NCBI GenBank assembly: GCA_947646735.1
Contig: CANTFK010000412.1
Coordinates: 1 to 64,000 of the forward strand
Length of the DNA stretch: 64,000 nt
Origin: Peronospora farinosa
Lineage: Eukaryota > Oomycota > Peronosporomycetes > Peronosporales > Peronosporaceae
Reading direction: 5' to 3'
The first letter of the stretch is position 1. Each line of letters opens with the position of its first letter. The notes under the pieces were generated by a model that had not been told where the DNA came from, ran no database searches, and saw nothing but the letters and a program-made list of their open reading frames with translations. The position numbers and the translations under genes are program-made. Of this stretch, positions 1 through 29,340 are shown piece after piece.

Positions 1-305
1 CATTAACACTGTAGTAAAAAGGATTCTGACATTATGTTTTCGCTTACCTTCAGCCCGGTCACTTGCGTGCCCCAAGCTGCGCTCACCCCGTGAGTTTCCT
101 GTCCACTCAATCGGTTTGTTGCTGCACTAACACCGTGTCTACTCTATCTACATGCTAGGAGAACAGTGTCGCCAGCCGCCTCTCGTACCTTCTCGTGTCC
201 AGGTGCAAATCTTTATTTTAACATATCTCACTGCATGTTTCAAAACAGAGACATTAGCTGTGCAATAGCTGTGAAAGATTAATTAACCAATTCAAGACGT
301 ACAAG

Positions 306-1512
306 ATGATCAAAGTGCCCCGTGGTATTGTGAATCTCCTATCCGATACGGTAACCCGCCCCAATGCCTCTATGCGGCAGGTAATTGCGTCTGCAGAGGT
401 GGGCGACGACGTGTTTGGTGCAGACCCATCCGTCAAGCGACTCGAAGGTGGCAGCTGAGCGTCTTGGGAAGCAGGCAGCGCTCTACGTGCCTTCGTACGT
501 TCACTGGCTGTAAGCGGCTGATAGTATTTGGCATGAATGACGTTTGTAATTCAATTAGTGGCACCATGTCGAATCTTATCGCCATCGGTGTGCATTGCCG
601 CCGTGGGGACGAGGTCATTTGTGGCAACCAAGCACACATTTTTCCTGTATGAAGGCGGCGGAGCTAATGGTAAAATACGTCACGCTGCTGTTCTACATCG
701 ATATTTATGATGCTAATTTGCTGCTATCTCTCTTGTTTGAATCGAAACTCGTAGCATACATGGGGGTGAGCTTACATACATTACCCAACCAACTGGACGG
801 AACTCTTGATATCAAGGACATCACTAATGCCATTCGAAGCAATGACCCACATTATCCACGTTCGAGACTTGTCGCGATTGAGAATACGCAGAATTCGTGT
901 GGCGGTCGTGTCTTGCCTCTCTCCTATATTCACGAAGTCAAGCAGTTTTGTACCGAGCACAACCTACGCCTTCATGTTGACGGTGCACGACTGGCAAACG
1001 CAAGCGTGGCGTCGAAGACATCAATGGACGAATTCGTTAGAGGTGCCGATTCGGTCTCACTCTGTCTGAGTAAAGGGTTGGGTGCTCCCGTCGGCTCCAT
1101 CCTGGCAGGCTCAGACGAGTTTATTCATTACGCCACGCGACTTCGAAAGTCACTTGGTGGAGGCATGCGGCAGGCCGGCGTCATTGCGTCAGCGGGGCTT
1201 TACGCATTGGAGAACCAGTTTGACCGCCTCGCTGAAGATCATATTAATGCGCAGGCCTTTGCTTACGTCATCTCCTCTATTCCGGGTATCGAGATCGACC
1301 CCAACGCTGTAAAGACAAACATCGTCTTTTTCAGGTTGACTTTGGATGCCAAGCTGGACGCAACGACGCTGGCACAGAAGCTTGAAGCCGAGAAAGGTTT
1401 GCTCGTCGGTGCATATGCAGACGAAAACCGCGTGCGCGCAGTGACCAATCTACACATTTCTAGTCGCGATGTTGGCTACGCCGTATCGTCAATCCGCGCG
1501 CCGCTCAGCTGA
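306..1512 (+). pseudogene. L-threonine aldolase, left copy, frameshifted
   Basis: Copy of the PLP-dependent aldolase that is intact at 27704-28911. Three exons can be traced: 306-494, 559-669 and 755-1512, with GT..AG introns at the same places as in the right copy. Exon 3 is fully open and keeps the PLP-lysine motif SKGLGAPVG and the HVDGAR motif. Against the right copy, exon 1 has lost two bases near 447 (a run of four A became two) and exon 2 has gained one T near 641. The net change is -1, so the reading frame cannot be restored by splicing at the known sites. The product would be truncated soon after the N-terminal segment. Either the copy is dead or these are homopolymer sequencing errors; both lesions lie in A or T runs. 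Confidence 0.85.
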
Positions 1513-1951
1513 GACCGTGGCGACTGAATGTCGAAGCTGCATGATTGAAATAACGAGCTTTGGGTACTGACACTTGACTAGGTATGTCCTGCCCGTCTAC
1601 TTGAGGTGAGGCGATGTAAGTTTGTTTAAAGGACAGCAGTGATAACATGTTCATAGTAAAGAGTAACTACATTTCAAATAGGTTCGATCAAGACAATGGA
1701 AAACACTTAACGACAACTCAAACAATCGTAGAAAAAAAGCTATTGAAAAACAAAAACTTTACACCTGAAAATACCTCATTGGTCTGTCAATAACATCACC
1801 GACGCTTGTATCAGGTTCAAATTTCACTTTTCAGCCCGTGACTTGAAACCTCCCGCACTTTGAAAATCTCGTCGTCCAGTTCGTACTTCGACGCACGTTC
1901 GTACTGATAAGCTTGTTGTCAGCCTCGTCCAATACTGGCTTGTAGTCCCTC
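1513..1951. other. Intergenic region between convergent aldolase and effector remnants
   Basis: AT-rich 3' flanks of two convergent genes, matching 27267-27703 in the right arm. I see no open frame with coding character. The part nearest the effector (about 1831-1951) continues in frame-like sequence downstream of the effector stop and was probably transcribed as its 3' end. Confidence 0.6.
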
Positions 1952-3343
1952 CTACTGATCGTCATCGATTCGTTGGCCCTTTGTCGGCACGGATGCTTCA
2001 CCGTCGTTTCGTTGGCGCTTTCCCAGCACTGGTACTTCACCGTCTTTTCGTCTGGGCGGTCCAAGCACAAGTACATTACCCTTGACTTCAAATACCCATA
2101 CTAAGTTTTCTTTGTTTCGTAACTTATTTAGCGACGTACGAAATTTGCTGGCATGTTCAACGCCAAAAACATTGAAGAACTTGAAAAGGTGATCGTCATC
2201 ATAGTATTTCCTCAGCATTTCAGTTGGTAGTTGATATCTATAATCATAAGAACTTACTTTGCCGTCGTGCATTACCATATAAGAAATCAGCGTGTCAAAC
2301 AATGGGCTGTCGATGCTTGCAATTTCTAACCAAAGAAGCTTAAAGACATCTTCACCACTATACTTATACTTATGAATCCACTTCATCATTTGATAATCCG
2401 CCAACATGTTTGCCGTTTCCTTCACACTCTCCTTGACACTCTTCTTGTCTTGAACCAGAACTAGCTGTATTGCTAGCTCTCGTTCTGTAAAGTGCTTCGA
2501 TAACTTATCAAACAATAGCGGAATTGGGAATCCAAGCCCACTTTCTTGGTTCCACTTTTTCACTTCCAACAATATTTGGGTTACATCCTTCTTGCCAGTA
2601 AGTAACATTTTTCCAAGCGAACTATCATTTTATCACTCCACTTCAACGCCAGAGATTTTTCTAATCCTTTGGCAGCTGCAATAGTACCTGTCTCTATCAT
2701 TGCAGCCGCTATAATGCTGGCGCCCTCGTCCAAAATTTTCTTAATCTCTCCAACTCCATCGCTAGTTGTCAATGCAGCACTTTTAGGCAAGTTGTTCGCG
2801 TTCTTGTCAGCTTTAGCGCCAGTTGTCAATGTTGCGATCGTCTTTTCGGACGAAGGGGCAAGACTTAATTCCAGATTCATGTCAACTCCATTACCAGGTG
2901 TCAGTTCTTCGACCGTATTTTCGGACAAGACTTAATTTAAGGTTCTTGTCAACTCCATCGCCACTTGTCAATGCAGCACTCTTAGGCAAGTTGTTCGCGT
3001 TCTTGTCAGCTTTAGCGCCACTTGTCAATGTATCGAGCGTATGTTCGGACGGAAGTGCAAGCACGAAGTCAAGGTCCATGTCAGCCATAGCGCCACTTGT
3101 CAATGCTTCAAACATTTTTTCGAAAGGAGTCATCCTTTCTTCGTCACCGCCGTTAGTTTCCTCCGTTATCGATGAGCTTGGCCTCAATTGTCGTTTTTCT
3201 TGCGCGTTTGTCGGTGCATGCTGCGAAGCGACGATCATCTTTACCATAGTCTGTGGACTATTTGAAGCCAATATCACCACACCGACCGTTGCTAGCACCA
3301 TGCACCAGAACAGATGCTTAACTTTGTAGATCGTGCAGGCCAT
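1952..3343 (-). pseudogene. RXLR-dEER effector, left copy, frameshifted
   Basis: Secreted host-targeted effector of the oomycete RXLR class, broken. Reading starts at 3343. Residues 1-30 or so form a signal peptide with a hydrophobic core (about 11-26), followed by RQLR at 51-54 and DEER at 67-70, the correct spacing for RXLR-dEER translocation motifs. A linker follows with imperfect repeats built on TLTSGAKADKNANNLP, then a C-terminal domain (from about 2608) with W/Y-type helical signature (ADYQMMKWI, GEDVFKLL), and a basic tail. Relative to the right copy, about eight bases are missing near 2933 and one A near 2606, each shifting the frame. The N-terminal 150 codons, including signal and RXLR, stay open. 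No function is assigned beyond effector class. Confidence 0.82.
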
Positions 3344-3615
3344 TTTCAATAGCAGTGAAGAGCTGGAAGCGAACAAAGTGAGAAGGAACGACTCTTATCG
3401 GTCTGGAATGAGCGACGATAACAATACGACCACGGGAAAGCCAGTTGGATAAGTCTAGCTGGATGGAATTGTGCAAGCGAGAGTCCAGCAGAGAAAGTGC
3501 CTGGTACGGATTGCAGACGACCTCCTGGTACAAGTCGTGGACGATCTAAAAATCAATCTTTACGAGCTTGAATCACACGTAGCTATTGAGAGTTACAGGA
3601 GCATAAAGGCTGGGA
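3344..3615. other. 5' flank of the left effector copy
   Basis: Upstream of the minus-strand effector start. It is conserved in the right arm (about 25595-25866), so it was duplicated with the gene. No separate gene is visible. An open frame continues 33 bases upstream of the chosen start; the ATG at 3343 is preferred because it places the hydrophobic core at the right distance for a signal peptide. Confidence 0.5.
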
Positions 3616-5790
3616 CTACCAAGGACACTGCACAATAAAGTTGTTCACGATGTACCTACGCCTGGTGTCGACAGAGCACAAGGATAACGCTGCGTCGTCT
3701 ATGTGATGCTGGGCCGTACTGTGTCCCGGCACCGCAATCTTAGACATGAAGCGGAAATTGTGAATGCTGTGACAACTCATGGATATTGTGAGCTCAACAG
3801 CTTTAACTGCTAATTCATTCGAGCTTGTCTTGTTAAGTGCATGCCGCACTCGGAGACTTTGCCATCCATTCCTCTGTCAATGCACTGCATTATCAGGCAG
3901 GATCAAAACGACACTGCAATTCAATCCTGATGGATTACAACAGATGCGAATCGACACAGACGTTCTTCGCACTGTTTCTGCTGAAGTAGGGAAGACCTGT
4001 TCCGCTCTGTTGAACTCCACGACTTCCAGCACGGAGGTAGTTCAAGCATTTGAACTAGAGGTTGGAAACACCCTCTACGAACTTTATTCATTGATGTGAA
4101 GCAACCCGTTCTATTGCTACTGCCTTCAAGTACGTGAAAGAAAACTTGTGCATGGCGTAAGCAGTTTCACGAGATCGATTGGTAAATGCAATTGCGAGCC
4201 CCGACACGCTCACTCCAAGCAGCACCTACATTGACCGGTGGTTGCGTTCTGACCTTCTGCGAGTTGCCGTCCAGCGGTCTATGTCGTCGCGCTCGTCCTT
4301 GTCTCTCCAAATGGCCAGAAATGCGTCGAAGAACGACGATGTGTTGTCGCACAGATAAAAACATTTGGAGATTGAGAAACAGCGCTAGACACTGACAGAG
4401 AGGCCTCATTCGAGTGAAGCCAACACAAATCAACAGAACACGCGTGCGCTCGTCCTTCGACAGCGCCGCAACAGTAGCAGCATCCTCGAGTTCGCACCCA
4501 CGGACTTGCTCTCGACTACTTCCATCCTGATGTCATTGCTCAGAGAGCCGCGTTGACGGTTGGCTATAGCTTTTGATGCTGACGAACCATCTGCTAGAGG
4601 AGCTTGCAGCATGCTTTCACTCATCTCGAGGGTATGTTTGACTCAATCAACGCTTTCATGGGAGCGGATGGAGAGCAAGGAGCGTGCTCTGTGCGCCACT
4701 GAGAAGACTTCGCTTGCAAATGAGTCGCAAGTGCGCGGTTCGGAGGCTGACCTAATCGAGCAACGTGCGCGTACGCTGATCGAAAGCTACAAGCAGATGC
4801 CAGGCTGAGCACCTAAAATACCCCGCTGAGCTGGGTAAGATCAGGAACTACCGATCTGAGCGTGAAAAGCTGATTTTGCTACGAGAGGCTGAACTTGTGG
4901 CCGCCAAGAAGCTCATCAAGAATTGCAACTACTACGACCGCAGAGCGTGTGCTGATTTCGTGAAGCAGTTTAAGGTTGACGAAAGAAACGAAGGAGGTGC
5001 GTGACGTATCGACTGGCTGAAAATTGTCATTGAGCGTGACATCAAGCACATGAAGAAGTGGCTTGACTCGAGCCGCAAAGAGCGAAAGGAAACTGAGAAC
5101 CTAAAGGATAAAGGGCCAGGAGATCAACTGGGATGAAGACATGCTGGAGCGCATTTCTGCTGTCAAGAAGATTCAAAAGAAGATCGCTTGCCAGACTGGT
5201 TTCGGCCACGAGGTTGGCAACAGCGAAGCTAAGCTGGCTGACGCTGTGCACCTCTCGGAACAGTGGATTGTGGAGTTTCTTAAGTTCACAAAGAACATCT
5301 TGGAGATTGAAGTGAAGCTACTGAAGGAACATTGGCGTGACTATTGACGCGGCTGTGATCGAGGAGGATGTGGTAAACTTGAACTTGAAGAAGATGAAGA
5401 CGGACAAGGCGTGCGTGCTTAACATCATCCACTTCATGGACCAGGAAGAGGCCAAAGCAATTCGCAGTACAGGTGCCTGGTCGCCACAGCACTCGTGGCT
5501 GTTTCGCGAACGGCGACGAGCAGCCGACACCAAAAGCCCACACTCCTTTGTCAAAGCCAGCCCGCACCACGTCGCCGAAGTCGGCACGCACCGCGTCGCC
5601 GAAGATGGCCCGCACGATATCGCCGGCCCCGTCAAAGCATGTATCACCGTCCAAGTTTTCACCAACACCACGCCTTTCTCGGCACCGGCATCTAAGCCGC
5701 GTCCTGCTCAGGCGACGCTTCGGTCAGAGGAGTTCTAGGTTGACGACTATGAAGTCAGCGATTTATGAGCGGCTTGATGTTTTCCTGTGA
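3616..5790 (+). pseudogene. Decayed coiled-coil protein gene, left copy
   Basis: Fragments with coding character run on the plus strand but switch frame many times. A segment around 3930-4000 contains FNPDGLQQMRIDTDVLRTV, faintly like the helical C-terminal regions of vesicle-tethering subunits (weak). Segments at 4560-4806, 4810-5030 and 5041-5345 are strongly charged and helical with coiled-coil character. The end (about 5473-5790) carries a repeated ARTxSPK motif, a serine/proline/lysine-rich tail. The right arm has the same pieces on its minus strand (23445-25570). I do not recognise the family. The many breaks suggest a pseudogene rather than introns, since I could not place consistent GT..AG pairs. 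Confidence 0.6.
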
Positions 5791-6560
5791 CGTCGGCATC
5801 TATGCGAAGATCAAGCTGCTCGCGTATTCTGTTTTATTCCCGTTTCATCCCATGTGCTCTTTCGAAAGATGAACTACTTTTTCTTCTTTAGCCTTGCCAG
5901 CTTCTTGTGAATAAATAGTTGAGCTGTGATCGGTCGAAGTTTGTAGTTGTTTCCGCACAAGAATGGTAATCTATTGCCGTCTTCCATACAGCAATGCTCG
6001 TTGATCATATTCTTCTTTAGCACGACCCAAGCGCAAGTGTACATTTCACATGGTCAAAGGGATGCAAACGTGTAAACGTGCAAACGTGTTCATGAGCATC
6101 TCTTCACTTGACGCCCAAATTACACTGTGGAAAGCGACCGAAAAGACACTTGTCGAGATAGAGAAAGAGGATGCTCGTGCCTTGCTGATATCGTTCATCT
6201 TGGGCACAGCTGGTAGTCATCACCCAAGGCTAGGCACAGGAAGGAAAGCCGATTCCTCATCCTGTTCGCAGAATAGTTGACAGTATCCTCATCCCGCACA
6301 AATTGCGAACGCGTTGCTGCAGCTTGACAGCATGGCTGATTGAGTAATTTTAGTTCTTGTTTTGAACAGGGGAGTAAGTGGGCTCGTAGATGATGGCTCC
6401 GAGGGAAGCCAAGTTTGTCTGCTGTCCATGGGACAATCGGATAATGGAGACAAGCAATCGTTTGGTCTTGCAGTACTCAGCAGTTGACATGAAGCTGCTG
6501 ATTGTTCTACTTCCAGGTTAAGATGGGCCCCACGCCCCATGGCTCAAAAGTGTTACTCGT
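5791..6560. other. Flank of the decayed gene with one short open frame
   Basis: Contains AT-rich sequence that looks like a 3' untranslated region (5790-6030). A short plus-strand open frame at about 6092-6277 includes SLDAQITLWK and a helical stretch, and is also present in the right arm (22924-23115, minus strand) with a changed C-terminus. From 6290 to 6560 I see no convincing coding signal. In the right arm this zone is interrupted by a block of about 0.64 kb. Confidence 0.4.
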
Positions 6561-6759
6561 GTTATAAAGAGAAGCTAGTCGCAAATTCTCTGATAACCTC
6601 ATCGCACTCATTACGGTGACAGGGACCATCTGATCGAAGATCTCCTCGAATATCGTCTGGGCGTTGATTTGCATAACTACGCTGCGAAGCTTGAGCACTG
6701 AGAAGAAGCAGCAGCAGCGGACGGTAGATCATCCAAAAGTCTGCGAGCTTAAAAACATT

Positions 6760-7050
6760 CTCAGAGAATCGGTACCAATACGTTACTGGCCACGCCACAG
6801 ACTTTGGTAAGAAGGTCCTGAAGATCCTTGAAGCTGGTCGCAATGAGCGCCGTGACGATGTGAAAGAGTCTTCGCAGCTGCAGAAGGACGATGAATCTGG
6901 CATTGAGAGCGTCGTGAAGGAGCTATCCGCAAGCCACAGTTGCTCTAAGGAGAAGGTGGAAAAGCGCGAGGTTTGGATAGAGGTTGAGGATGTGTATAGC
7001 GTTCAAAGCCACAGGAGAAGGATGAGGATATGATGATGACCTCGCAAATC
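6760..7050 (+). pseudogene. Charged helical gene fragment, left copy
   Basis: A plus-strand open stretch with coding character. It begins near GHATDFGKKVLKIL, continues through lysine- and glutamate-rich sequence ending EVWIEVEDVYS, then shifts frame. The right arm has the same fragment on its minus strand (about 21530-21820), where the frame stays open a little further. It overlaps, tail to tail, the end of the opposing minus-strand remnant. It may be the 3' end of the plus-strand gene at 3616-5790 or a separate gene. No family recognised. Confidence 0.45.
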
Positions 7051-7059
7051 CGTAGTCTG

Positions 7060-9150
7060 CTCCAGCAGTTCCACCTTGTGCTCACCGTTCAGGATGCGCT
7101 GCTTCTAGCGCACGCACGATACGCTCCTCCTGGTCGATCACACGGTGAGTAAAGTGCTGCAATAGCTTCTGCAGGTCAGCAGCAACGAACAGCCTGTTTC
7201 ACAAGACGGTTCACCTCAACCTCCTTGCGGTTCAAGTGTTGTACAAGAAGCCCAGCACCCAGTTGCCAGCATTGTTCATCAGCTCAGTGGTGAGGCGTTT
7301 CTTTAGATTCCTCGTCTGCCAAAAGCTTTGTTTCGGTATCGGTCAGCTTGTTGAACTGGATAACCATTTCTTCCTTCAGAGTAGCGTTCTTCACCTTCTC
7401 GAGGGTCTTGATGTGCTGGTTCATGCGCTCCAGAAGAGATATGCTTGTTTTCGTTCTCAAGCTGAACAGCCTGGTCGTCAAGCTCCTTTTGGAACTGAAC
7501 ACGGCGACGGTAGACGTCGTTCATGAACTCATCACGCTCGTCCATCTCGGCATCACCACCCTCTTGCGGGATGCACTTATTGCTGTCCTTCACAGCGTGC
7601 AGTTCGCTAGCACGAACCTTCATGTCCGCCTCTAGACGAGCAACATACTCGGCCGTGATGATCAGAGCATTATACTAGCTTCATCTAGGGTCCTCACAGT
7701 GTTCCTTGAACAACTTGCAGTCTGCCTTGCGCTCTTCTGTGAGGGCAGCACGCTTAAATAGCAGCATGGCTGCGACTTGATTTGGCGAGCGAGCTGATCT
7801 GAAGACATCCGTGCGCTTCGTGCCCGCGTAATACGGGCCATGTGTTCATCCCGAATCGCCTCGGTGGTGTTGATGCGCTCATTTTGCACAACACGCCACT
7901 TCTTCTCATATGCTTTATCAAGAGCCTGGTGGCGCGAGCGCCGCTGAGCGATTGAGCGTGTACGGGCATTAATTTCCGTCTAGAGTGCCAGCAGTCAGCC
8001 TTTACAGCATTGGCATTCTTCTGTCGAGCTTCGGCCTCCAGACGCACATACTCGTGCTCCTGCTTGTAGCGAGCATCGTCGTCACAACATAGTTTGTCCT
8101 CGCGCTTCATGTTCGCACGGTTGCTGGTCCAGTGCTCACATTCCATGGCAAGCTTCATCCACTCATCATCGACGATGTCACCTTCCTCCTCCAAAAGCTC
8201 AGGCTCCTGAATTTTCACAAAGTCTGCGTGCAAGTTAACGAGCTCGCGCGGTAACTTGTTCTTCTGGTCTTGGAAGATACCATACGAGTGCACAATAAAG
8301 TCGTTGGCAATCTCGTTCGATACGAAGGAGTTGTGAGCCTCAGACCAGTCAGCACAGTGCTTTGACCACTGAGGCCTCGCTATTACGCACTGACTGATCG
8401 CGCACGACATCAAAGAACAGAATGAGAGTGGTGCTAAGCTGCTTCTCGTAGCGCTCTTTTTCGCGCTCATTCTTTGCAAGCTTCGAGAGCCTTGAAACAG
8501 AAGGCAGCTTGCTTATGATGGATGTTCTGAGCGGCTTCACGCTTCCTCTGCTCCTCCGCACCGGTAGCCTACGTTGTTTTTGCTTCTTCTGACGGTCGTG
8601 CAAGCCGTTCACCTTGGTACGAATCTGGGCCTTCTCCATCTCCAGGCGTAGACTCTTGATCAGCGTATTGTACTGGTCCGTGTTGTACAGCAAATATCTT
8701 GTCACTCTTCTTGAACTAATGTAGCTTCTCCGTTGGTAGCGCCAAGAAAACCTCCAGGCAGTCAGCACCACGTAGAAGCGGGTGCAGCATCCAGCCATAC
8801 AGGAAGTCAGCAGCACCTTCTTGCGTTCATTACGCGTTGTTCGTTTGCCGGAAAGTTCGGCAGAGCCTTTCGGTTCCGAAGATCACCAAGCTTGGCAAAC
8901 AACCACTCGAAGGCATCCATATTGCGCTCCTCGCGAATCTGGTATTCGTGCATGACCGCACGATCCGAATCAGTCACCGTATAGTTGGCAGCCCTGGCAG
9001 CATCTCATATCGGCTCGCAGTATGTCTTTAACATGTACGTCTCAGTTTCCGGAGTGCTATCGTTCGATTTGGCAGTACTTTTCACGAGAATGTCAAGCTT
9101 GGTCAGGTACTCGAAGCCGGTAGGCGATTCGAGACAGGATTCATGACCGA
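7060..9150 (-). pseudogene. Decayed coiled-coil gene, left copy, truncated by the arm boundary
   Basis: Coding-like pieces run on the minus strand in changing frames from about 9130 to 7060. They include a stretch near 9110-8830 (FEYLTKLDILV and NMDAFEWLFAKLGDLRNR), long glutamate/lysine-rich helices at 8479-7754 (HADFVKIQEPELL, KQEHEYVRLEAEAR), and DERDEFMNDVYRRRVQF around 7550. Frameshifts are frequent, and one at about 7430 (within the stretch reading ENKHIS) is also present at the equivalent place in the right arm (about 21120). That breakage predates the duplication. In the right arm the same remnant is preceded by a FYVE/J-domain remnant, absent here because the arm ends at 9261. The family is not recognised; a long cytoskeletal or trafficking coiled-coil protein is one possibility. 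Confidence 0.6.
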
Positions 9151-9261
9151 CGCAATGAAATTTGGCGGGGATTCGTTACACGACGTACAGATGAGTGACG
9201 CACCGGCACAAGAAAACCCAGGTCCGGGATGAGCTTCGACTCAACATTACACACTGCGTGT

Positions 9262-9701
9262 AATAAAGGAGCCAACACTTATAGGGTCGTTAAAGAGTCA
9301 CCTTATCTATTTTAGTTAAAATGCCTTTGAACAGGTTCATAAAAGTCTAAGGACGCTTGCTAAGTTGTTTAGAATTGACTTGGTAATTTATTTACTTACC
9401 TAAAGATATTCCGACAGGAAGAATTGTCGAGTAAGTTTAACAACTTGATCATTTTTGCTTTATTTTTTGGTCTTGTAGATATTTAAACATGTAATTTATA
9501 AGCAATTTTACTTGCTGGGTGCACAACGTGTGATGGTAAACAAAAATTCCTGTAAAACACAAAAATACATAAAGGATCATTTTTTACTTCAGCAGTATAT
9601 TATTATACGATCAAAAGTAGCGCCATGGTAATTAATATACAGGGCACTACTAAATTTAATCGCTGGACCCACAATACTTAGTACTATTCATTAACAAAAT
9701 C
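9262..9701. other. AT-rich intergenic sequence, first part of the spacer
   Basis: Single-copy sequence beginning exactly at the inner end of the left arm. It is AT-rich with no open frame of note. It should include the promoter of the spliced gene that starts at 9702. No clear oomycete initiator could be fixed. Confidence 0.6.
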
Positions 9702-12491
9702 ATGAGTGGAACACACGAGAGCGAGCGGCTGCACTCGACGGTGCGGCTTAACCAGTTTACTCTGCAATTTGAAGACCTCGTGCTAGAGAAGACATACCAA
9801 GCGGAGCTTCACCCACGCAAGAAAGCGTTGTGGCTGCGCTCGCTGCTGCCAGCTGCAGCCTCTCAAATTTTATTCGCATTGGCCGATGGTCTCGATTTTC
9901 CTATTGAAAATTTGCTGCTTACTGTCCCAACTCGAGTTTTTCTTGCAGTAAGTTATTTTTTTACAATAATAACATAAACTATTAAATATTCTAACAAATG
10001 TTTACTGTAGATGCTCCAAGTTGCAATGTGGCTGCTAGTTCGCTGGGATCTGGTACAAGTGAAGGAACAGACAATATTAATGGTATCAGTAGCTAGTGGT
10101 TTTCCCACGTTGTTACTGTATACTTTGCAACGAACCTGTCTTTGTCAATGGGTACCTCATCTATTATACTGCTTGTGTATATCTTAATTTATATCTTAAT
10201 GGTGACATTACTTATTGTGTCTCTAGGATGCGTTATTTGTGACGTTTGGACTGTCATTCTATACAATTCCCAAGGTGACACCATTGGGTTATGTGTCATC
10301 TTTTTACGGCAGTTGGGCGACGACTGCATTGTATACTATGCTCACATTTGTGATTCGACCTTCACCAAGACAAGGAGAAAGTGTACTGGGTATTTTCTTC
10401 TTAGTGCCCATGGTCTGGGTCTTCAACACTATTGCTTACTATTCCGAGTGCAATTCTCGGGAACGGTTCGCTTTGCGTCGACGTTTACACCGTGAAAGTA
10501 TTACTTTAGCGGTCGCGTGTACGTCTGCAAGAGGTGAAGCTATGCAACAAGGTGGAGAGGACGATGGGGGATGGCTCTTGTTGCATACTGTGTCTCTGCG
10601 TGGAATGTTAGCCGCCAATACCGATAGTACTGCGTCTTTTATCGTCGCTGTGATACTATGGGGAGCTTTTACGCTAGGTAGTTGGACATCGCTCCCCGAC
10701 ACGTTAAAATTTGTTGATGAGGCCACTGGTTGGGCGTGGTTTAGTCACTGTGCGGGTGTGACGGTGTTTCTTCTGGTGATGACAAGGCGGCTTCGGTGGC
10801 TGCTGGTGGTGCCAGTTTTTGGTGCGTTCTTGTTGTGGGTAATGTCGCTGGCTATGCCGGCATCCTGGATTATTATCTCGGCTCATAGTATGGGATACGG
10901 TCTGTTGCTGGCTTCCGTGGTTATTGCCATGGGCGTATTTGGCTGGTTCGTATGTGCATGGAAAGAGCTTGTGTCTTTCCTGACACGATCTTGCTTCTTG
11001 TATCCTCAACTTCAGGCTGGTATGGAAAGGGAATATCCGCTGCTTGTGCGGATTGTATCCGAGCACACGGCTGGATTTGATCCTGAAATTTTGTCGGCAC
11101 GGGTCCCGACAATGATTGCAATTAATTCAATGGGCAAGCAAGCATCGGAAACTACTGTAATTTCGTCACAAAGAGTGGAACAGAAAGAACCCACGCGAAG
11201 TGCTCTAAATATGAAGCAGCAAAAAGTAAAAACGGAAAACATGCAACTCCAGAAAGCAAGTGAGAATCAAAATCCATCTACGGCTAGCAAATGCCAGGGA
11301 CCTAACTCTGTTCTGGAAAGGACCGCAATTTTGGCAGATTCATCATCAGAACGCCAAGATACGATGGTAACCACTGACACATGCTCCGATTACAAAATGA
11401 TTTCGGTCTTGCCTTCTTCTAAGCCGGGAAAGTGCTTCTTCTGCTCTAAAAACGATGCAGAGCATTTTGTGCCTGCTTGCGGAATGTGGGGAAAATGGAC
11501 CTATTGGCGAATGAATCAGCAGCACAACGTTTCAACATCTTCAAAAAGAGCGGTCATCTCGAAAGGCACAATTGCTGTTTCGATGTGCACGTCCTACTGC
11601 GATCTTCAAAATGCCAAGTCCCAGCTTGAGACTCGTGTTCAAGATGAGAAAAAGAAGAGCGCTGATCTCATGAAAAAGCTTGCAGCATGCGAAGGATCCG
11701 AACAGATACTGTCGCTGGAAAACGTCAGTTTAAAGGCAGAGCTTTGTGCAATGGAGGAGAAACACGCGGCAGATCTACGGCGACAGGAGGCGCATCTCCA
11801 AGAGAAAATGGAGGCTGTACAGAAAGAGGCGAATCGGCTAGCCCACGAGCATAAACTGCAGGTCAAAACTAGTGCAGCAGCCCACGCTGCTACATTGCAA
11901 AAGCGACTTGCGATTAGCGAGCTTCTCATTCAGGAGGCTGATAATGGTGTCCAAATTGCCAATGAAGAAGCAGCAGAGTTGCGCTTGAGTCTTAAGCGGA
12001 GGGAAACGGACATAGCTGAATGGAGAACCAAAGCTAATGAACTTACGAAACAGCTATCGAGCATGGAACTTCAGCTACAGCATCAGTCACAGAGCAGACC
12101 ATCTCTACTTGTCGGTTCCTCAGCGTTGGATTCCTTGCTCGCCTTTACGGCAAGTGAAGGGTCAGTGAATGTTTCACCTCTGGCATCGCTTCATACGCTT
12201 CAGCCGATTGGACGTCTACCATATGCACAATCGCTGGAAATTGAAGGCCTACGGGAGTCTAGCAGACAGTTGCATGAAGACGTGGACTATTCGAAACGAT
12301 GGCGACTTCTTCAGAGTTCTGATCCGAGCAGAAGAGGCGGTACACAGTAAAATTGATTGGGTCACTAGCAAAGATAGCTTTGGCGTACCAGGAAACTTGA
12401 ATCAATGCAGCTTGCTGAGGAATGGATGAAACTTGTCAAAGATACACTAGAATCATCATCCGTCCAGTTCAACCACTATAGTCACGACTGA
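9702..12491 (+). CDS. Multi-pass membrane protein with C-terminal coiled coil (four exons)
   Basis: Exons 9702-9947, 10011-10151, 10227-12346 and 12392-12491 join in frame to about 868 residues. Introns 1 and 2 (63 and 75 nt) have good GTAAGT/GTACCT donors, and intron 1 has a CTAAC branch site. The 45-nt last intron is short, but splicing it restores an open frame (KLESMQLAEEW) after what would otherwise be a stop at 12348. Residues 50-420 hold roughly eight to ten hydrophobic segments, including PVFGAFLLWVMSLAM. A polar region with a cysteine cluster (KCFFCSKNDAEHFVPAC) follows, then a coiled coil of about 200 residues (from around 11600) rich in E, K, Q and A. I do not recognise a family; a membrane-anchored scaffold is a guess. 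It is the main intact gene of the left half of the spacer. Confidence 0.8.
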
Positions 12492-17705: not shown

Positions 17706-17773
17706 ATGTAAACACTACCGTTTGCGCTTCCGTGTAATACTCCCCCAGAGTTGCCTCATTTTGTATCGGCGAC

Positions 17774-18061
17774 TTACAAGAAGACATACTCGCTTTCTAA
17801 GTGAATCACTGCTTCTCCTAGTATGGTAACATCAATGCAAACAATACTGGAGCTCACGACAAAGTCGCGAAGAATATCTTTCTGGAGAAACAATCCATTC
17901 ACGACCAACGGAAGCGAGATCAAGATGACCGGCAAAATCCCAAACTCGTCATATCTATCGTCAAACTGTAGATTGCACCCTGCGCGAGCAGTGCAATAAA
18001 GAACGCATTCAAGACCGTCAGGAACATGACTGCAACATGCCACGCATTGCATGAAAACCAA
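17774..18061 (-). other. Open frame with hydrophobic middle, uncertain
   Basis: Minus-strand frame of 95 codons with a cysteine-rich start and a hydrophobic stretch (LPVILISLPLVVNGLFL). It could be part of a membrane protein relic. Nothing nearby supports it and the opposite strand is closed. Confidence 0.2.
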
Positions 18062-18292
18062 GGTAGATGAATCTCGAGCGATTCAGGCAACACACCACTT
18101 CATCGTGGTGCCGGGTGCTTCTTGGAGCTCAAGACACGCATGACAATGCGGAAGCTGATCGTAAGTAATTCAAGTCCTGCATCACTTTTCAGCATTCCTT
18201 CATTATATGCCTCCCGTTCGTGTTCCACTTCTTCATGTTGCGTATCAAATCGGTTTATAACATTTATCTAACGCGTTGTCGACAGCTTCAGT

Positions 18293-19265: not shown

Positions 19266-19429
19266 TAAGCTAGGTCGTCGTCAAAACTGTCGTCGCTGCA
19301 CACGCAGTGTGTAATGTTGAGTCGAAGCTCATCCCGGACCTGGGTTTTCTTGTGCCTGTGCGTCACTCACTGTACGTCGTGTAACGAATCCCCGCCAAAT
19401 TTCATTGCGTCGGTCATGAATCCTGTCTC

Positions 19430-21530
19430 GAATCGCCTGCCGGCTTCGAGTACCTGACCAAGCTTGACATTCTCGTGAAAAGTACTGCCAAATCGAACGA
19501 TAGCACTCCGGAAACTGAGACGTACATGTTAAAGACATACTGCGAGCCATATGAGATGCTGCCAGGGCTGCCAACTATACGGTGACTGATTCGGATCGTG
19601 CGGTCATGCACGAATACCAGATTCTTGAGGAGCGCAATATGGATGCCTTCGAGTGGTTGTTTGCCAAGCTTGGTGATCTTCGGAACCGAAAGGCTCTGCC
19701 GAACTTTCCGGCAAACGAACAACGCGTAATGACCGCAAGAAGGTGCTGCTGACTTCCTGTATGGCTGGATTCTGCACCCGCTTCTACATGGTGCTGACTG
19801 CCTGGAGGTTTTCTTGGCGCTACCAACGGAGAAGCTACATTAGTTCAAGAAGAGCGACAAGAAATTTGCTGTACAACACGGACCAGTACAATACGCTGAT
19901 CAAGAGTCTACGCCTGGAGCTGGAGAAGGCCCAGATTCGTACCAAGATGAACGGCTTGCACGACCGTCAGAAGAAGCAAAAACAACGTAGGCTACCGGTG
20001 CGGAGGAGCAGAGGAAGCGTGAAGCCGCTCAGAACATCCATCATAAGCAAGCTGCCTTCTGTTTCAAGGCTCTCGAAGCTTGCAAAGAATGAGCGCGAAA
20101 AAGAGCGCTACGAGAAGCAGCTTAGCACCACTCTCATTCTGTTCTTTGATGTCGTGCGCGATCAGTCTGTGCGTAATAGCGAGGCCTCAGTGGTCAAAGC
20201 ACTGTGCTGACTGGTCTGAGGCTCACAACTCCGTCGTATCGAACGAGATTGCCAACGACTTTATTGTGCACTCGTATGGTATCTTCCAAGACCAGAAGAA
20301 CAAGATACCGCGCGAGCTCGTTGACTTGCACGCAGACTTTGTGAAGATTCAAGAGCCTGAGCTTTTGGAGGGGGAAGGTGACATCGTCAATGATGAGTGG
20401 ATGAAGCTTGCCAAGGAATGTGAGCACTGGACCAGCAACCGTGCGAACATGAAGCGCGAGGACAAACTATGTTGTGACGACGATGCTCGCTACAAGCAGG
20501 AGCACGAGTATGTGCGTCTGGAGGCCGAAGCTCGATAGAAGAAGGTCAATGCTGTAAAGGCTGACTGCTGGCACTCTAGACGGAAATTAATGCCCGTACA
20601 CGCTCAATCGCTCAGCGGCGCTCGCGCCACCAGGCTCTTGATAAAGCATATGAGAAGGAGTGGCGTGTTGTGCAAAATGAGCGCATCAACACCACCGAGG
20701 CGATTCGGGATGAACACATGGCCCGTATTACGCGTGGCACGAAGCGCACGGATGTCTTCAGATCAGCTCGCTCGCCAAATCAAGTCGCAGCGCATGCTGC
20801 TATTTAAGCGTGCTGCCCTCACAGAAGAGCGCAAGGCAGACTGCAAGTTGTTCAAGGAACACTGTGAGGACCCAAGATGAAGCTCGTAAAACGCTCTGAT
20901 CATCACGCTCGAGTATGTTGCTCGTCTAGAGGCGGACATGAAGGTTCGTGCTAGCGAACTGCACGCTGTGAAGGACAGCAATAAGTGCATCCCGCAAGAG
21001 GGTGGTGATGCCGAGATGGACGAGCGTGATGAGTTCATGAACGACGTCTACCGTCGCCGTGTTCAGTTCTAAAAGGAGCTTGACGACCAAGCTGCGCAGC
21101 TTGAGAATGAAAACAAGCATATCTCTTCTGGAGCGCATGAACCAGCACATCAAGACCTTCGAGAAGGTGAAGAACGCTACTCTGAAGGAAGAAATGGTTA
21201 TTCAGTTCAACAAGCTGACCGATACCGAAACAAAGCTTTTGGCAGACGAGGAATCTAAAGAAACGCCTCACCACTGAGCTGATGAACAACGCTGGCAACT
21301 GGGTGCTGGGCTTCTTGTACAACACTTGAACCGCAAGGAGGTTGAGGTGAACCGTCTTGTGAAACAGGCTGTTCGTTGCTGCTGACCTGCAGAAGCTATT
21401 GCAGCACTTTACTTATCGTGTGGTCGACCAAGAGGAGCGTATCGTGCGTGGGCTAGAAGCAGCGCATCCTGAACGGTGAGCACAAGGTGGAACTGTTGGA
21501 GCAGACTACGGATTTGCGAGGTCATCATCA
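19430..21530 (+). pseudogene. Decayed coiled-coil gene, right copy
   Basis: Counterpart of 7060-9150 in the left arm, here on the plus strand. Same order of pieces: FEYLTKLDILV, FEWLFAKLGDLRNR, long charged helices, DEFMNDVYRRRVQF, and a C-terminal piece GEHKVELLEQTTDLR near 21477-21520. It shares a frameshift with the left copy at about 21120 and has at least one private stop at 21069 (CAA in the left arm became TAA). It follows the FYVE/J-domain remnant with the same orientation. No family recognised. Confidence 0.6.
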
Positions 21531-21820
21531 TATCCTCATCCTTCTCCTGTGGCTTTGACACGCTATACACATCCTCAACCTCTATCCAAACCTCGCGCTT
21601 TTCCACCTTCTCCTTAGAACAACTGTGGCTTGCGGACAGCTCCTTCACGACGCTCTCAATGCCAGATTCATCGTACCTTCTACAGCTGCGAAGACTCTTT
21701 CACATCGTCACGGCGCTCATTGCGACCAGCTTCAAGGATCTTCAGGACCTTCTTACCAAAGTCTGTGGCGTGGCCAGTTACGTATTGGTACCAATTCTCT
21801 GAGAATGTTCTTACGTTCGC
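21530..21820 (-). pseudogene. Charged helical gene fragment, right copy
   Basis: Counterpart of 6760-7050. The minus-strand frame from about 21648 to 21409 stays open longer here (SKPQEKDEDMMMTSQIRSLLQQF), because the left copy has lost a base in the VYSV region. It overlaps the end of the plus-strand coiled-coil remnant. Confidence 0.45.
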
Positions 21821-22146
21821 AGCCTTTTGGATGATCTACCGTCCGCTGCTGCTGCTTCTTCTCAGTGCTCAAGCTTCGCAGCGTAGTTGTGCAAATCAAC
21901 GCCCAGACGATATTCGAGGAGATCTTCGATCAGATGGTCCCTGTCACCGTAATGAGTGCGATGAGGTTATCAGAGAATTTGCGACTAGCTTCTCTTTGTA
22001 ACACGAGTAACACTTTTGAACCATGGGGCGTGGGGCCCATCTTAACCTGGAAGTAGAACAATCAGCGCTTCTTCAACTGCTGAGTACTGCAAAACCAAAC
22101 GTTGTTGTCTCCATTTTCCGGTTTTCCCATGGACAGCAGACAATCG

Positions 22147-22782
22147 GGGCCCTCACGAGAAAAATTTTTTGGATTATTTAGCACTCAAGTAATTGCCGTC
22201 CTTTGGGGTAGCACACTGCTTTGGTGAACAAACCCCCCCCCCTTTTTCCCCTTTTTTTTTAAAAAAAACTCGCCCTTTTTTGGGTTTTATTTAAAAAGAG
22301 GGGAAAAAATTTTGAAATGCGCCCTTGGGGTTTTTTTTTTGGGGGGGGGGTTTTTTTGGGGGGGGGGGGGGCTACACACAAAAAATTGTCACACACAAGT
22401 CTTCCGACACTTTCTTTGGCAAAATCCTCGGGGTGGAGACTGAAGGGAAGAAAGCTAGAGACGACTTGTGAGCAGTTTGATTGATTCGAGATAAGGTGGC
22501 GTTGATTCTACGGTCGGCTCATTGACCACTTTGCTTCCAACTTTTCTCTTCCAGCCACTTTTTCCTACGTCTAGTCTGCTACTTTATTCTGCGCTATGGG
22601 CATATGGATGTGACGAGCTTACTCACGGACTGGTGTGGAATCCGATATTTATGCAAAATCACGAGCATGGCGACATTCACCCTATTGTCAATCCTTTGTC
22701 GCTGCTTTCGATCGGATCTACTTGTCATTCCAACTTTCGTTAACTCGGTGCTTTGCTACAGACTTGATGCAAAACAAAAACA
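22147..22782. other. Insert present only in the right arm, with homopolymer junk
   Basis: The left arm runs continuously where this block interrupts the right arm (left junction near 6410-6420). Between about 22238 and 22370 the sequence is runs of C, T, A and G of 6 to 14 bases, unlike any other part of the window. From 22380 to 22780 it is ordinary sequence with no recognised gene. The homopolymer part looks like a low-quality consensus or assembly patch. The rest could be true inserted DNA. Confidence 0.7.
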
Positions 22783-23444
22783 AGCACTTGGCTTTCCCCG
22801 GAGCCATCATCTACGAGCCCACTCACTCCCCTGATCACAACAAGAACTAAAATTACTCAATCAGCCATGCTGTCAAGCTGCAACAACGCGTTTGCAATTT
22901 GTGCGGGATGAGGGTATTGTCAACTATTTTGCGAACAGGATGAGGAATCGGCTTTCCTTCCTGTGCCTAGCCTTGGGGTAACGACTACCAGCTGTGCCCA
23001 AGATGAACGATATCAGCAAGGCACAAGCATCCACTTTCTCTATCTCGACAAGTGTCTTCCCGGTCTCTTTCCACAGTGTAATTTGGGCGTCAAGTGAATA
23101 AATGCTCATGCACACGTTTGCATCTCTTTTGACCTTGTGAAATGTACACTTGCGCTTAAGTCGTGCTAAAGAAGAATATGATCAACGAGCATTACTGTAA
23201 AGAAGACGGCAATAGATTACCATTCTTGTGCGGAAACAACTACAAACTTCGACCGATCACAGCTCAACTATTTATTCACAAGAAGCTGGCAAGGCTAAAG
23301 AAGAAAAAGTAGTTCATCTTTCGAAAGAGCACATGGGATGAAACGGGAATAAAACAGAATACGCGAGCAGCTTGATCTTCGCATAGATGCCGACGTCACA
23401 GGGAAAACATCAAGCCGCTTACAAATCGCTGCCTTCATAGTCGT

Positions 23445-25570
23445 CTACTTAGAACTCCTCTGACCGAAGCGTCGCCCGAGCAGGACGCGGCTTAGATGCC
23501 GGTGCTGGGAAAGGCGTGGTGTTGGTGAAAACTTGGACGGTGATACATGCTTTGACGGGGCCGGCGGTATCCTGCGGGCCATCTTCGACGACGCAGTGCG
23601 TGCCGACTTTGGCGACGTGGTGCGGGCTGGCTTTGAAGAAAGAGTGTGGGCTTTTGGTGTCGGCTGCTCGTCGCCGTTCGCGAAACAGCCACGAGTGCTG
23701 TGGCGACCAGGCACGCCACCCATACCTGTACTGCGAATTGCTTTGGCCTCTTCCTGGTCCATGAAGTGGATGATGTTAAGCACGTACGCCTTGTCCGTCT
23801 TCATCTTCTTCAAGTTCAAATTTACCACATCCTCCTCGGTCACAGCCGCGTCAATAGTCACGCCAATGTTCCTTCAGTAGCTTCACTTCAATCTCCAAGA
23901 TGTTCTTTGTGGACTTAAGAAACTCCACAATCCACTGTTCCGAGAGGTGCACAGCGTCAGCCAGCTTAGCTTCGCTGTTGCCAACCTCGTGGCCGAAACC
24001 ATTCTGGCAAGCGATCTTCTTTTGAATCTTCTTGAGAGCAGAAATGCGCTCCAGCATGTCTTCATCCCAGTTGATCTCCTTGCCTTTGTCCTTCAGGTTC
24101 TCAGTTTCCTTTCGCTCTTTGCGGCTCGAGTCAAGCCACTTCTTCATGCGCTTGATGTCACGCTCAATGACAATTTTCAGCTAGTCGATACGTCACGCAC
24201 CTCCTTCGTTTCTTTCGTCAACCTTAAACTGCTTCACGAAATCAGCACACGCTCTGCGGTCGTAGAAGTTGCAATTCTTGATGAGCTTCTTGGCGGCCAC
24301 AAGTTCAGCCTCTCGTAGCCAAAATCAGCTTTTCACGCTCAGCTCGGTAGTTCCTGATCTTACCCAGCTCAGCGGGGTATTTTAGGTGCTCAGCCTGGCA
24401 TCTGCTTGTAGCTTTCAATCAGCGTACGCGCACGGTGCTCGATTAGATCAGCCTCCGAACCGCGCACTTGCGACTCCTTTGCAAGCGAAGTCTTCTCAGT
24501 GGCGCACAGAGCACTCTCCTTGCTCTCCATCCGCTCCATGAAAGCGTTGATGGAGTCAAACTTATCCTCGAGATGAGTGGAAGCATGCTGCAAGCTCCTC
24601 TAGCAGATGGTTCGTCAGCATCAAAAGCTATAGCCAACCGTCAACGCGGCTCTCTGAGCAATGACATCAGGATGGAAGTAGTCGAGTGCAAGTCCGTGGG
24701 TGCAAGTCCGTGGGTGCGAGCTCGAGGATGTTGCTGCTGTTGCGGCGCTGTCGAAGAACAAGCGCACGCGTGTTCTGTTGATTTGTGTTGGCTTCACTCG
24801 AATTGAGGCCTCTCTGTCAGTGTCTAGCGCTGTTTCTCATTCTCCAAATGTTTTTTATCTGTGCGACAACAAATCGTCGTTCTTCGACGCATTTCTGGCC
24901 ATTTGGAGAGACAAGGAACGAGCGCGACGACATAGACCGCTGGACGGCAACTCGCAGAAGGTCAGAACGCAACCACCGGTCAATGTAGGTGCTGCTTGGA
25001 GTGAGCGTGTCGGGGCTCGCAATTGCATTTACCAATCGATCTCGTGAAACTGCTTACGCCATGCACAAGTTTTCTTTCACGTACTTGATGGCAGTAGCAA
25101 TAGAACGGGTTGCTTCACATCAATGAATAAAGTTCGTAGACGGTGTTTCCTCGAAGGCTTGAACTACCTCCGTGCTGGAAGTCGTGGAGTTCAACAGAGC
25201 GGAACAGGTCTTCCCTACTTCAGCAGAAACAGTGCGAAGAACGTCTGTGTCGATCCGCATCTGTTGTAATCCATCAGGATTGAATTGCAGTGTCGTTTTG
25301 ATCCTGCCTGACAATGCAGTGCATTGACAGAGGAATGGATGGCAAAGTCTCCGAGTGCGGCATGCACTTAACAAGAACAAGCTCGAATGATTTAGCAGTT
25401 AAAGCTGTTGAGCTCACAATATCCATGAGTTGTCACAGCATTCACAATTTCCGCTTCATGTCTAAGATTGCGGTGCCGGGACACAGTACGGCCCAGCATC
25501 ACATAGACGACGCAGCGTTATCCTTGTGCTCTGTCGACACCAGGCGTAGGTACATCGTGAACAACTTTAT
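23445..25570 (-). pseudogene. Decayed coiled-coil protein gene, right copy
   Basis: Counterpart of 3616-5790. Pieces on the minus strand: the FNPDGLQQM segment (25380-25120), the TYIDRWLRSDLL segment (25035-24817), coiled coils at 24593-24390 and 24147-23851, and the S-P-K tail (23861-23445). Here several pieces are longer than in the left arm; for example 24147-23851 stays open over 98 codons where the left copy has an extra base. It is still broken by multiple shifts, so it is not functional as read. Confidence 0.6.
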
Positions 25571-25866
25571 TGTGCAGTGTCCTTGGTAGTCCCAGCCTTT
25601 ATGCTTCTGTAACTCTCAATAGCTACGTGGGATTCAAGCTCGCAAAAATTGATTTTTAGATCGTCCACGACTTGTACCGGAAGCTCGTCCGCAATCCGTG
25701 CCAACCACTTTCTCTGCTGGACTCTCGCTTGCACAATTCCATCCAGCTAGACTTATCCAACTGGCTTTCCCGTGGTCTTATTGTTATCGTCGCTCATTCC
25801 AGAGAACGATAAGAGTCGTTCCTTCTCACTTTGTTATTTGCTTCCAGCTCTTCACTGCTATTGAGA

Positions 25867-27266
25867 ATGGCGTGCACGATCTACAAAGTTAAGAATCTGT
25901 TTTGGTACATGGTGCTAGCAACGGTCGGTGTGGTGATATTGGCTTCAAATAGTCCACAAACTATGGTAAAGATGATCGTCGCCCCAGATGATCATGCACC
26001 GACAAGCGCGCAAGAAAAACGACACTTGAGGCCAAGCTCATCTATAATGGAGAAAACTACGGCGGTGACGAAGAAAGGATGACTCCTTTCGAAAAAATGT
26101 TTGAGGCATTGACAAGTGGCGCTAAGGCTGACATGGACCTTGACTTCAAGCTTGCACTTCCGTGGCCGGACATACGACCGAAACATTGACAAGTGGCGCT
26201 AAAGCTGACAAGAACGCGAACAAATTGCCTGAGAGTGCTGCATTGACAAGTGGCGATGGAGTTGACAAGAACCTTAAATTAGGTCTTGCGCCTCCGTCCG
26301 AAAATACGGTCGAAGAACTGACACCTGGTAATGGAGTTGACATGAACCTGGAATTAGGTCTTGCCCCTCCGTCCGGAAATGCGCTCGAAGAATTCACAAC
26401 TGGTGCTAGAGCTGGCAAGAACGCGAACAATTTGCCTATAAGTGCTGCATTGGCAACTAACGATGGAGTTGGAGAGATTGAGAAAATTTTGGACGAGGGC
26501 GCCAGTATTATTAAGGCTGCAAAGATAAAGACAAGTACTTGATGCAGCTGCCACAGAATTAGAAAAATCTCTGGCGTTGGAGTGGAGTGATGAAATGATG
26601 GTTCGCTTGGAAAAAATGTTACTTGCTGGCAAGAAGGATGTAACCCAAATATTGACGGAAGTGAAAGAGTGGAACCAAGAAAGTGGGCTTGGATTCCCAA
26701 TTCCACTGTTGTTTGATAAGTTATCGAAGCACTTTACAGAACGAGAGCTAGCAGGACAGCTAGTTCTGGCGCAAGACAAGGAGAATGTGAAGGAAACGGC
26801 AAACATGTTGGCGGATTATCAAATGATGAGGTGGATTCATAAGGATAAGTATAGTGGTGAAGATGTCTTCAAGCTTCTTTGGTTTGAAATTGCAAGCATC
26901 GACAGCCCATTGTTTGACACGCTGATTTCTTATATGGCAATGCTCGACGGAAAAGTATATTCATACAAAACTAAGATGAAACCACTACTTGATATGCTGA
27001 AGCAATACTTTTCGGAACAAATTCTTTTCGAGTGGTTCAATGCTTTGGCTGAAACTCCCCAAGGCAAGATACGTGCCAGTTCTTTGAAACAGTTGCTCCA
27101 AAGCAATATGGGCAATGATTGGGTATCTAAAGTCAAGGGTAAAGTATTTCTGCTTGGACCGCTCAAACGAAAAGACGGTGAAGTACCAGTGCTGGGAAAG
27201 CGCCAACGAAACGACGGTGAAGCATCCGTGCCGACAAAGGGCCAACGAATCGACAATGATCAGTAG
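25867..27266 (+). pseudogene. RXLR effector, right copy, frameshifted
   Basis: Counterpart of 1952-3343. The start at 25867 gives the same signal peptide, followed by RHLR, so the first RXLR position is kept. A one-base loss near 26051 throws the dEER motif out of frame and ends the product at 26082. Further downstream there is a two-base gain near 26163 and a one-base gain near 26543. The repeated linker (TLTSGAKADKN, AALTSGDGVDKN, LTPGNGVDMN) is readable at 26162-26542. The C-terminal W/Y-like domain and basic tail are open at 26577-27266. None of these lesions is shared with the left copy, so each copy broke separately. Confidence 0.82.
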
Positions 27267-27703
27267 GAGGGACTACAAGCCAGTATTGGACGAGGCTGAC
27301 AACAAGCTTATCAGTACGAACGTGCGTCGAAGTACGAACTGGACGACGAGCTTTTCAAAGTGCGGGAGGTTTCAAGTCACGGGCTGAAAACTGAAATTTG
27401 AACCTGATATAAGCGTCGGTGATGTTATTGACAGACCAATGAGGTATTTCAGGTGTAAAGTTTTTGTTTTTTCAATAGCTTTTTTCTACGATTGTTTGAG
27501 TTGTCGTTAAGTGTTTTCCATTGTCTTGATCGAACCTATTTGAAATGTAGTTACTCTTACTATGAACTTGCTATCACCGCTGTCCTTTAAACAAACTTAC
27601 ATCGCCTCACCTCAAGTAGACGGGCAGGACATACCTAGTCAAGTGTCGGTACCCAAAACTCGTTATTTCAATCATGCAGCTTCGACATTCAGTCGCCACG
27701 GTC
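27267..27703. other. Intergenic region between convergent effector and aldolase
   Basis: AT-rich 3' flanks, counterpart of 1513-1951. No gene seen. Confidence 0.6.
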
Positions 27704-28911
27704 TCAGCTGAGCAGCGCGCGGATTGACGATACGGCGTAGTCAACATCTCGACTAGAAATGTGTAGATTGGTAACTGCGCGCACGCGGTTTTCGTCTGCA
27801 TATGCACCGACGAGCAAACCTTTCTCGGCTTCAAGCTTCTGTGCCAGCGTCGTTGCGTCCAGCTTGGCATCCAAAGTCAACCTGAAAAAGACGATGTTCG
27901 TCTCCACAGCGTTGGGGTCGATCTCGATACCCGGAATAGAGGAGATGCCGTAAGCAAAGGCCTGCGCATTAATATGATCTTCAGCGAGGCGGTCAAACTG
28001 GTTCTCCAATGCGTAAAGCCCCGCTGACGCAATGACGCCGGCCTGCCGCATGCCTCCACCAAGTGACTTTCGAAGTCGCGTGGCGTAATGAATAAACTCG
28101 TCTGAGCCTGCCAGGATGGAGCCGACGGGAGCACCCAACCCTTTACTCAGACAGAGTGAGACCGAATCGGCACCTCTAACGAATTCGTCCATTGACGTCT
28201 TCGACGCCACGCTTGCGTTTGCCAGTCGTGCACCGTCAACATGAAGGCGCAGATTGTGCTCGGTACAGAACTGCTCGACTTCGTGAATGTAGGAGAGAGG
28301 CAAGACACGGCCACCACATGAATTCTGTGTATTCTCAATCGCGACAAGTCTTGAGCGTGGGTAATGTGGGTCATTGCCTCGAATGGCATCAGTGATGTCC
28401 TTGATATCAAGAGTTCCGTCCAGTTGGTTGGGTACTGTATGTAAGCTCACCCCCATGTATGCTACGAGTTTCGATTCAAACAAGAGAGATAGCAGCAAAT
28501 TAGCATCATAAATATCGATGTAGAACAGCAGCGTGACGTATTTTACCATTAGCTCCGCCGCCTTCATACAGGAAAATGTGTGCTTGATTGCCACAAATGA
28601 CCTCGTCCCCACGGCGGCAATGCACACCGATGGCGATAAGATTCGACATGGTGCCACTAATTGAATCACAAACGTCAGTCATGCCAAATACTATCGGCCG
28701 CTTACAGTCAGTGAACGTACGAAGGCACGTAGAGCGCTGCCTGCTTCCCAAGACGCTCAGCTGCCACCTTTTCGAGTCGCTTGACGGATGGGTCTGCACC
28801 AAACACGTCGTCGCCCACCTCTGCAGACGCAATTACCTGCCGCATAGAGGCATTGGGGCGGGTTACCGTATCGGATAGGAGATTCACAATACCACGGGGC
28901 ACTTTGATCAT
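27704..28911 (-). CDS. L-threonine aldolase (low-specificity type), three exons
   Basis: PLP enzyme cleaving L-threonine or L-allo-threonine to glycine and acetaldehyde. Exons 28721-28911, 28547-28656 and 27704-28461 join in frame to 352 residues, the usual family length. The first intron is 64 nt (donor GTACGT, acceptor AATTAG), the second 85 nt (donor GTAAAA, acceptor CGTAG). The start MIKVPRGIVNLLSDTVTRP matches the family's conserved N-terminal SDTVT. Also seen are EVGDDVFGADP, HVDGAR with Asp176, and SKGLGAPVG with the Schiff-base lysine at 207. Threonine breakdown feeds glycine and acetyl-CoA metabolism. This is the only intact copy in the window; the left arm copy is frameshifted. Confidence 0.92.
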
Positions 28912-29340
28912 CTTGTACGTCTTGAATTGGTTAATTAATCTCACAGCTATTGCACAGCTGATGTCTCTGTTTTGAAACATGTAGTGAGATTTTCCAGTAT
29001 GCTGGCAGCATAGCTATTCACTTAAGGCAGAAGATCGTTGTCTTGATTGAGGGAAGATGGTATATTTTCTAAGAAGAAATGCTGCCTTATAATACACGAT
29101 AGCAAAATGGTCATCAAGTATCCTAATATCCCGACTCGCAGCGCCCACACACAAGGGGCAGCAGCAGGCAAGGCTTGGGAGGAGACCTGACGTTACTTGT
29201 ACATCGAAGGAAGCTTTCTTCCGACTCTCCGCGCGACGAATAGTAGAGAAACTTTACGGGTCTTTTTGACCGTCTACGAAAGACACGCTCGCTCCTTGCT
29301 CCAAATCTTCAAATGCTTGCCATCTCGTGTCACCTGTAAT
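28912..29340. other. Region between aldolase 5' end and helicase 3' end
   Basis: Contains the aldolase promoter (next to 28911) and the right arm's outer boundary near 28996, beyond which the sequence is single-copy. The part from about 29200 is the helicase's 3' untranslated region. No further gene. Confidence 0.6.

Follow-up and report, generated by a model that had tools for sequence, protein, structure and literature searches.

Two long arms in opposite orientation at the start of a contig of Peronospora farinosa, a downy mildew that parasitizes plants, probably represent an old inverted segmental duplication, in which the right arm was copied and the copy was set inverted to its left. 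The window, i.e., the whole stretch of DNA analyzed, corresponds to positions 1-64,000 of contig C116 (231,772 bp), which belongs to a 46.85-Mb assembly with 274 contigs. Self-BLAST of the window aligned the outer parts of the arms (225-6414 with 28990-22786) at 93.7% identity over 6258 columns (~6.2 kb) and the inner parts (6415-9261 with 22143-19300) at 97.5% over 2851 columns (~2.8 kb). Both matches are inverted, collinear, and far beyond chance, and the two long arms thus lie in opposite orientation on one assembled contig, as is characteristic of an inverted segmental duplication. The basic layout is as follows.

225..9261 (+): left arm (copy A), with an inverted self-BLAST match to 19300-28990
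9262..19299 (+): spacer, delimited by self-BLAST; a probe from 11200-12400 has a single match, and relatives elsewhere exist for 18317-19299 and for some short stretches
19300..28990 (+): right arm (copy B), judged to be the source copy; self-BLAST match, colinear with part of a paralog on contig C28 and, in two blocks, with a paralog on contig C55

An earlier reading, made from the sequence alone, had described ~9-kb arms with sharp inner ends around a ~10-kb single-copy spacer. Self-BLAST confirms this layout: arm homology ends sharply at 9261 and 19300, the spacer measures 10,038 bp, and it is single copy where probed. The single-copy status of the spacer and the right flank is based on two short probes, one in the spacer (11200-12400) and one in the right flank, each of which matched a single genomic place; the long genome-wide queries were non-exhaustive (their own place or the right arm was missing among the matches), and absence there was not relied on.

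The outer end of the left arm is less clear-cut. The match starts at 225, and base 223, the previously proposed outer end, is the end of a repeat.

1..223 (+): most of an LTR-like terminal repeat (~228 bp) that ends TTTTAACA; paired copies on contigs C17, C237, and C261

The paired copies of this repeat lie 4.77-4.79 kb apart on the three contigs, and both copies on C17 start with TGATACG and finish with TTTAACA. The contig starts about 5 bases inside the repeat, with which the left arm ends on its outer side. Because of this start within the LTR-like repeat, the duplication does not necessarily end here and may once have extended further. At the left inner junction no mobile element was seen in a non-exhaustive search, the nearest listed repeat being 9310-9477 (73% to C124).

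The arms carry a metabolic gene and a candidate effector region, and the spacer holds genes of its own.

559..1509 (+): threonine-aldolase open stretch of the left arm, main exon (Pfam PF01212, E 6.3e-63)
27707..28678 (-): threonine-aldolase open stretch of the right arm (PF01212, E 5.9e-63; 98.5% to P. effusa P0063 over 206 aa)
10227..12347 (+): conserved oomycete gene in the spacer (97% to P. effusa P0001, 835 aa, over 707 columns)
13363..15591 (+): 743-codon open stretch of the spacer, resembling hAT transposases (PF05699, E 4.5e-6; PF04937, E 5.3e-5, under the cut-off)

The left and right aldolase stretches are 97.2% identical over 290 aa. No relative of the hAT-like stretch was listed in the non-exhaustive spacer search, and it is possibly a domesticated gene. 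Ten further open stretches in the arms and the spacer showed no protein family above the cut-off. Elsewhere in the window, two open frames on the minus strand (40082-41773 and 43942-44778) encode WRKY19-type zinc-finger repeats, and the stretch 44056-45294 has a further copy at C116:72663-73905 (94.5% alike). Direct repeats at 49992-50324 and 61043-61372 (87% alike) flank retroelement pieces, i.e., gag at 60135-60746 and RNase H at 57233-57811, and together they are probably an old, broken Ty3-like element.

Outside one block treated below, the arms differ in 291 of 8771 ungapped columns (192 transitions and 99 transversions), and this 3.3% figure leaves out the left-arm positions 2060-2275. 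The earlier description of small scattered differences holds for most of the arms, but a ~165-bp effector block is strongly divergent and 642 bp are missing on the left. With the block set aside, the differences are clumped (variance/mean of 3.9 per 200 columns). The longest identical tract spans 249 columns, and the maximum in shuffled data had a median of 179 and a 95% limit of 255. Recent conversion between the arms is therefore unsupported, as the longest tract lies inside the shuffle limit. Heterozygosity across 19 P. effusa isolates is given as 0.46-1.94% in the relevant parts of a published report (PMC12844528), and the divergence of the arms is 1.7 times the highest of these values, a benchmark from another species.

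Over 251 codons of the aldolase exon, the arms show 16 silent and 8 replacement differences (dS 0.092, dN 0.014, dN/dS 0.16); with 24 differences from a single exon as its basis, this dS is not a genome-wide measure of heterozygosity. Among 206 aldolase residues compared with P. effusa at the protein level, the right arm differs from P0063 in 3 and the left arm in 8, and the arms differ from each other in 5, so that the distance between the arms at the aldolase is similar to that between the two species.

The direction of copying can be read from paralogs in the same genome. Both arms are members of a segment family whose numerous partial relatives were placed mostly on C28 by a non-exhaustive search.

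18317..19299 (+): right end of the spacer, ancestral neighbor of the right arm; C28:178862-180790 aligns in one piece

The C28 segment aligns with 18317-20184 at 84.9% identity in a single alignment that runs across the right inner junction at 19300. Because of this colinearity the right inner junction is regarded as ancestral, and the C55 paralog keeps the order of the right arm in two blocks. Colinearity with both paralogs thus indicates that the right arm and the right end of the spacer belong together and that the left arm was added, unless the spacer has flipped since. A neighboring part of C28 (180880-183939) is internally inverted when compared with positions 21491-24638 of the right arm, which implies that segments of the arm family were rearranged repeatedly.

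With C55 or C28 as the outgroup, nine pieces yielded 141 changes polarised to the left arm (A), 134 to the right arm (B), and 19 ambiguous ones; since two pieces share 4559-5964, the C28 piece was also left out, which gave 120, 122, and 17, respectively. On these counts, the arms appear to have changed at about equal rates. A faster decay of the left arm is unsupported at the DNA level, the polarised counts being nearly equal; the eight amino acid differences in the aldolase exon look left-biased by eye in comparison with relatives, and they are too few to carry weight.

The same paralogs bear on the 642-bp difference between the arms.

6415..6415 (no strand): point at which the left arm lost 642 bp; the C55 paralog contains 387 of these, and C28 paralogs contain parts
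22144..22785 (+): the 642 bp retained in the right arm and missing on the left, from the arm comparison; C55:306269-309449 aligns from 22399 on

Since 387 of the 642 bp are common to the C55 paralog, and parts to C28 paralogs, at least that portion was lost on the left.

Both arms contain a region related to RXLR effectors.

1955..3394 (-): RXLR-like candidate effector region of the left arm, with open stretches 2894-3394, 2584-2931, and 1955-2629
25867..27263 (+): RXLR-like candidate effector region of the right arm, with an N-terminal match at 25867-25974 and open stretches 26144-26539 and 26529-27263

By eye, the N-terminal stretch of the left region shows a hydrophobic start, RQLR, and DEER; we take the latter two to be RXLR-like and EER motifs. 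None of the three effector pieces matched a Pfam family (0/3). A single open frame is absent in both arms, each of which has several open stretches, and introns or sequence errors are possible reasons. The C55 effector paralog is stop-free over the entire match (338 codons). Database searches yielded five matches, one of them from P. effusa with 39% identity over 11% of the query. The relative P0173 (357 aa), named 'RxLR effector candidate protein', is encoded on a contig of 231,772 bp, and its gene model spans the right-arm pieces. P0172 represents the left type, being identical to the left-arm stretch in 218 of 218 residues and carrying the left version of the divergent block, and is located on a contig of 162,845 bp; P. 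farinosa P0175 (contig of 137,914 bp) represents the right type, with 98.4% identity over 125 and 98.7% over 77 residues. Neither P0172 nor P0175 was found as an extra copy in the present genome. Their two contigs, which possibly come from separate assemblies and possibly from the same isolate as the window, are distinct from C116 and do not reproduce the inverted layout. Judging from these database sequences, the left and the right effector types both exist outside C116.

The sequence-only reading had further suggested a change in effector copy number. An effector-family gene is present in both arms and the copy number of the locus has changed, but the gain of a working copy is unsupported given the split frames. 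Further relatives of the effector form a tandem array at C16:36080-53515, where nine short copies with frames of 99-107 codons are spaced at 2.10-2.20 kb; three of the nine contain an internal stop.

Within the candidate effector, divergence is concentrated in a short C-terminal block.

2087..2248 (-): exchanged C-terminal block of the effector, left version (dS 1.20, dN 0.74 versus the right arm)
26964..27131 (+): exchanged C-terminal block of the effector, right version (codon comparison with the left arm)

In this block of ~165 bp (54 codons), dS is 1.20 and dN 0.74, compared with a dS of 0.11 in the 119 codons before and 0.06 in the 44 codons after it. At 2093-2268, 78 of 176 columns differ, and the edges are sharp. 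Saturated silent sites together with sharp edges lead us to infer that the block of one arm was replaced, presumably by exchange with another member of the effector family. Positive selection was rejected as the sole cause, since the silent sites are saturated too. DNA and protein searches of the genome itself found no donor. Besides the other arm, the listed matches to the block reach 36-38% (E 3e-5 to 0.9) and lie on C116:171640-171843, C28, and C55; for the left version, a single match (37%) was listed besides the right arm. C116:171640-172179, 150 kb away on the same contig, is a stop-ridden effector relative with seven stops in the match, and it is the nearest listed match of both block versions besides each other.

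The inverted duplication can be envisaged as follows. Template switching or ectopic repair would probably have produced a copy of the right arm, with the aldolase, the candidate effector, and family modules that are also present on C28 and C55, and this copy would have been placed in reverse at 9261/9262, ~10 kb further left. An LTR-like element may then have inserted at or near the outer end of the left copy. After the duplication the left arm would have lost 642 bp, and the effector of one arm may have gained its ~165-bp C-terminal block by conversion from another family member. No function is evident for the duplication itself, which would be a single step in the birth and death of segments that carry effectors.

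Two assembly artefacts compete with the duplication. According to the alternative already named in the sequence-only reading, the two arms are two haplotypes of one locus, the left one having been attached head to head at the contig end. Such a join would agree with the position of the left arm at a contig end beside a repeat, with the separate contigs on which the two effector types are found elsewhere, and with P. effusa being a heterozygous diploid according to the relevant parts of the published account (PMC12844528). It is nevertheless disfavored and unlikely, given an arm divergence of 3.3% and an aldolase dS of 0.092, short spacer and right-flank probes that match single places and find no second copy, a right inner junction that is ancestral according to the C28 paralog, and the presence of both effector types on contigs outside the assembly; moreover, an allelic bubble would not be expected to yield an inverted join over 10 kb of other DNA. 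Divergence, spacer and flank probes, paralog polarity, and the occurrence of both types outside the assembly together favor the arms being paralogous loci rather than alleles. In the other artefact, a fold-back (hairpin) read was built into the contig end, where the inverted copy is indeed located. Fold-back copies are, however, nearly identical and have little or no spacer. The 3.3% divergence with 192 transitions to 99 transversions, the aldolase dN/dS of 0.16, the 10-kb spacer, and the occurrence of P0172 on another contig make this origin hardly conceivable.

A stronger form of the preferred duplication is a real inverted pair that still recombines, so that the spacer would flip and occur in either orientation within the population. 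It is favored by the length of the arms (9 kb) and the 97.5% identity of their inner 2.8 kb, since such arms are long enough for homologous exchange. On the other hand, the longest identical tract (249 columns) is within the shuffled range, and the right end of the spacer currently lies in the orientation seen in the C28 paralog; ongoing flipping is thus quite improbable. A similarly far-fetched proposal is that the locus acts as a diversifying device, in which the inverted arms would hold two versions of one effector locus together, the spacer would flip by recombination between the arms, and C-terminal blocks of distant family members would be swapped into one arm while the other retains the earlier version.

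A published account of this locus was not found in the literature, including searches on inverted copies (mostly titles and the beginnings of abstracts). Read as an old inverted segmental duplication, the locus leaves established knowledge unchanged; it adds one polarised example of the copying of candidate-effector segments in downy mildews, suggests slow divergence of 9 kb around a short C-terminal block that can itself be replaced, and illustrates how the case for a haplotype join can be judged without reads when an inverted copy lies at the end of a contig.

Comparable processes are described in the relevant sections of three studies on related oomycetes. In the closely related P. effusa, RXLR clusters with copy-number variation contain duplicated effector-bearing segments beside LTR elements, as in the window, and ten frame-broken effector copies are reported (PMC11540230). 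Those clusters consist of near-identical copies with >96% protein identity within a cluster, whereas the two copies of the present study are older, inverted, and accompanied by a metabolic gene (PMC11540230). RXLR paralogs of Phytophthora ramorum have undergone recombination or gene conversion, including the C-terminal region, with discordant divergence along the gene that resembles the present case (PMC3820680). There, exchange was shown by trees of gene segments from several paralogs, whereas here two arms are compared and searches of the assembly found no donor (PMC3820680). The copying of segments and the exchange of fragments 40-303 bp long, again as seen here, are reported for P. sojae, but for a different effector family, and inverted copies are not a topic of the relevant parts of that work (PMC3726527). 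The copying of effector segments beside LTRs and exchange between paralogs are accordingly already known from P. effusa, P. ramorum, and P. sojae, as far as the relevant sections of these reports extend (PMC11540230, PMC3820680, PMC3726527).
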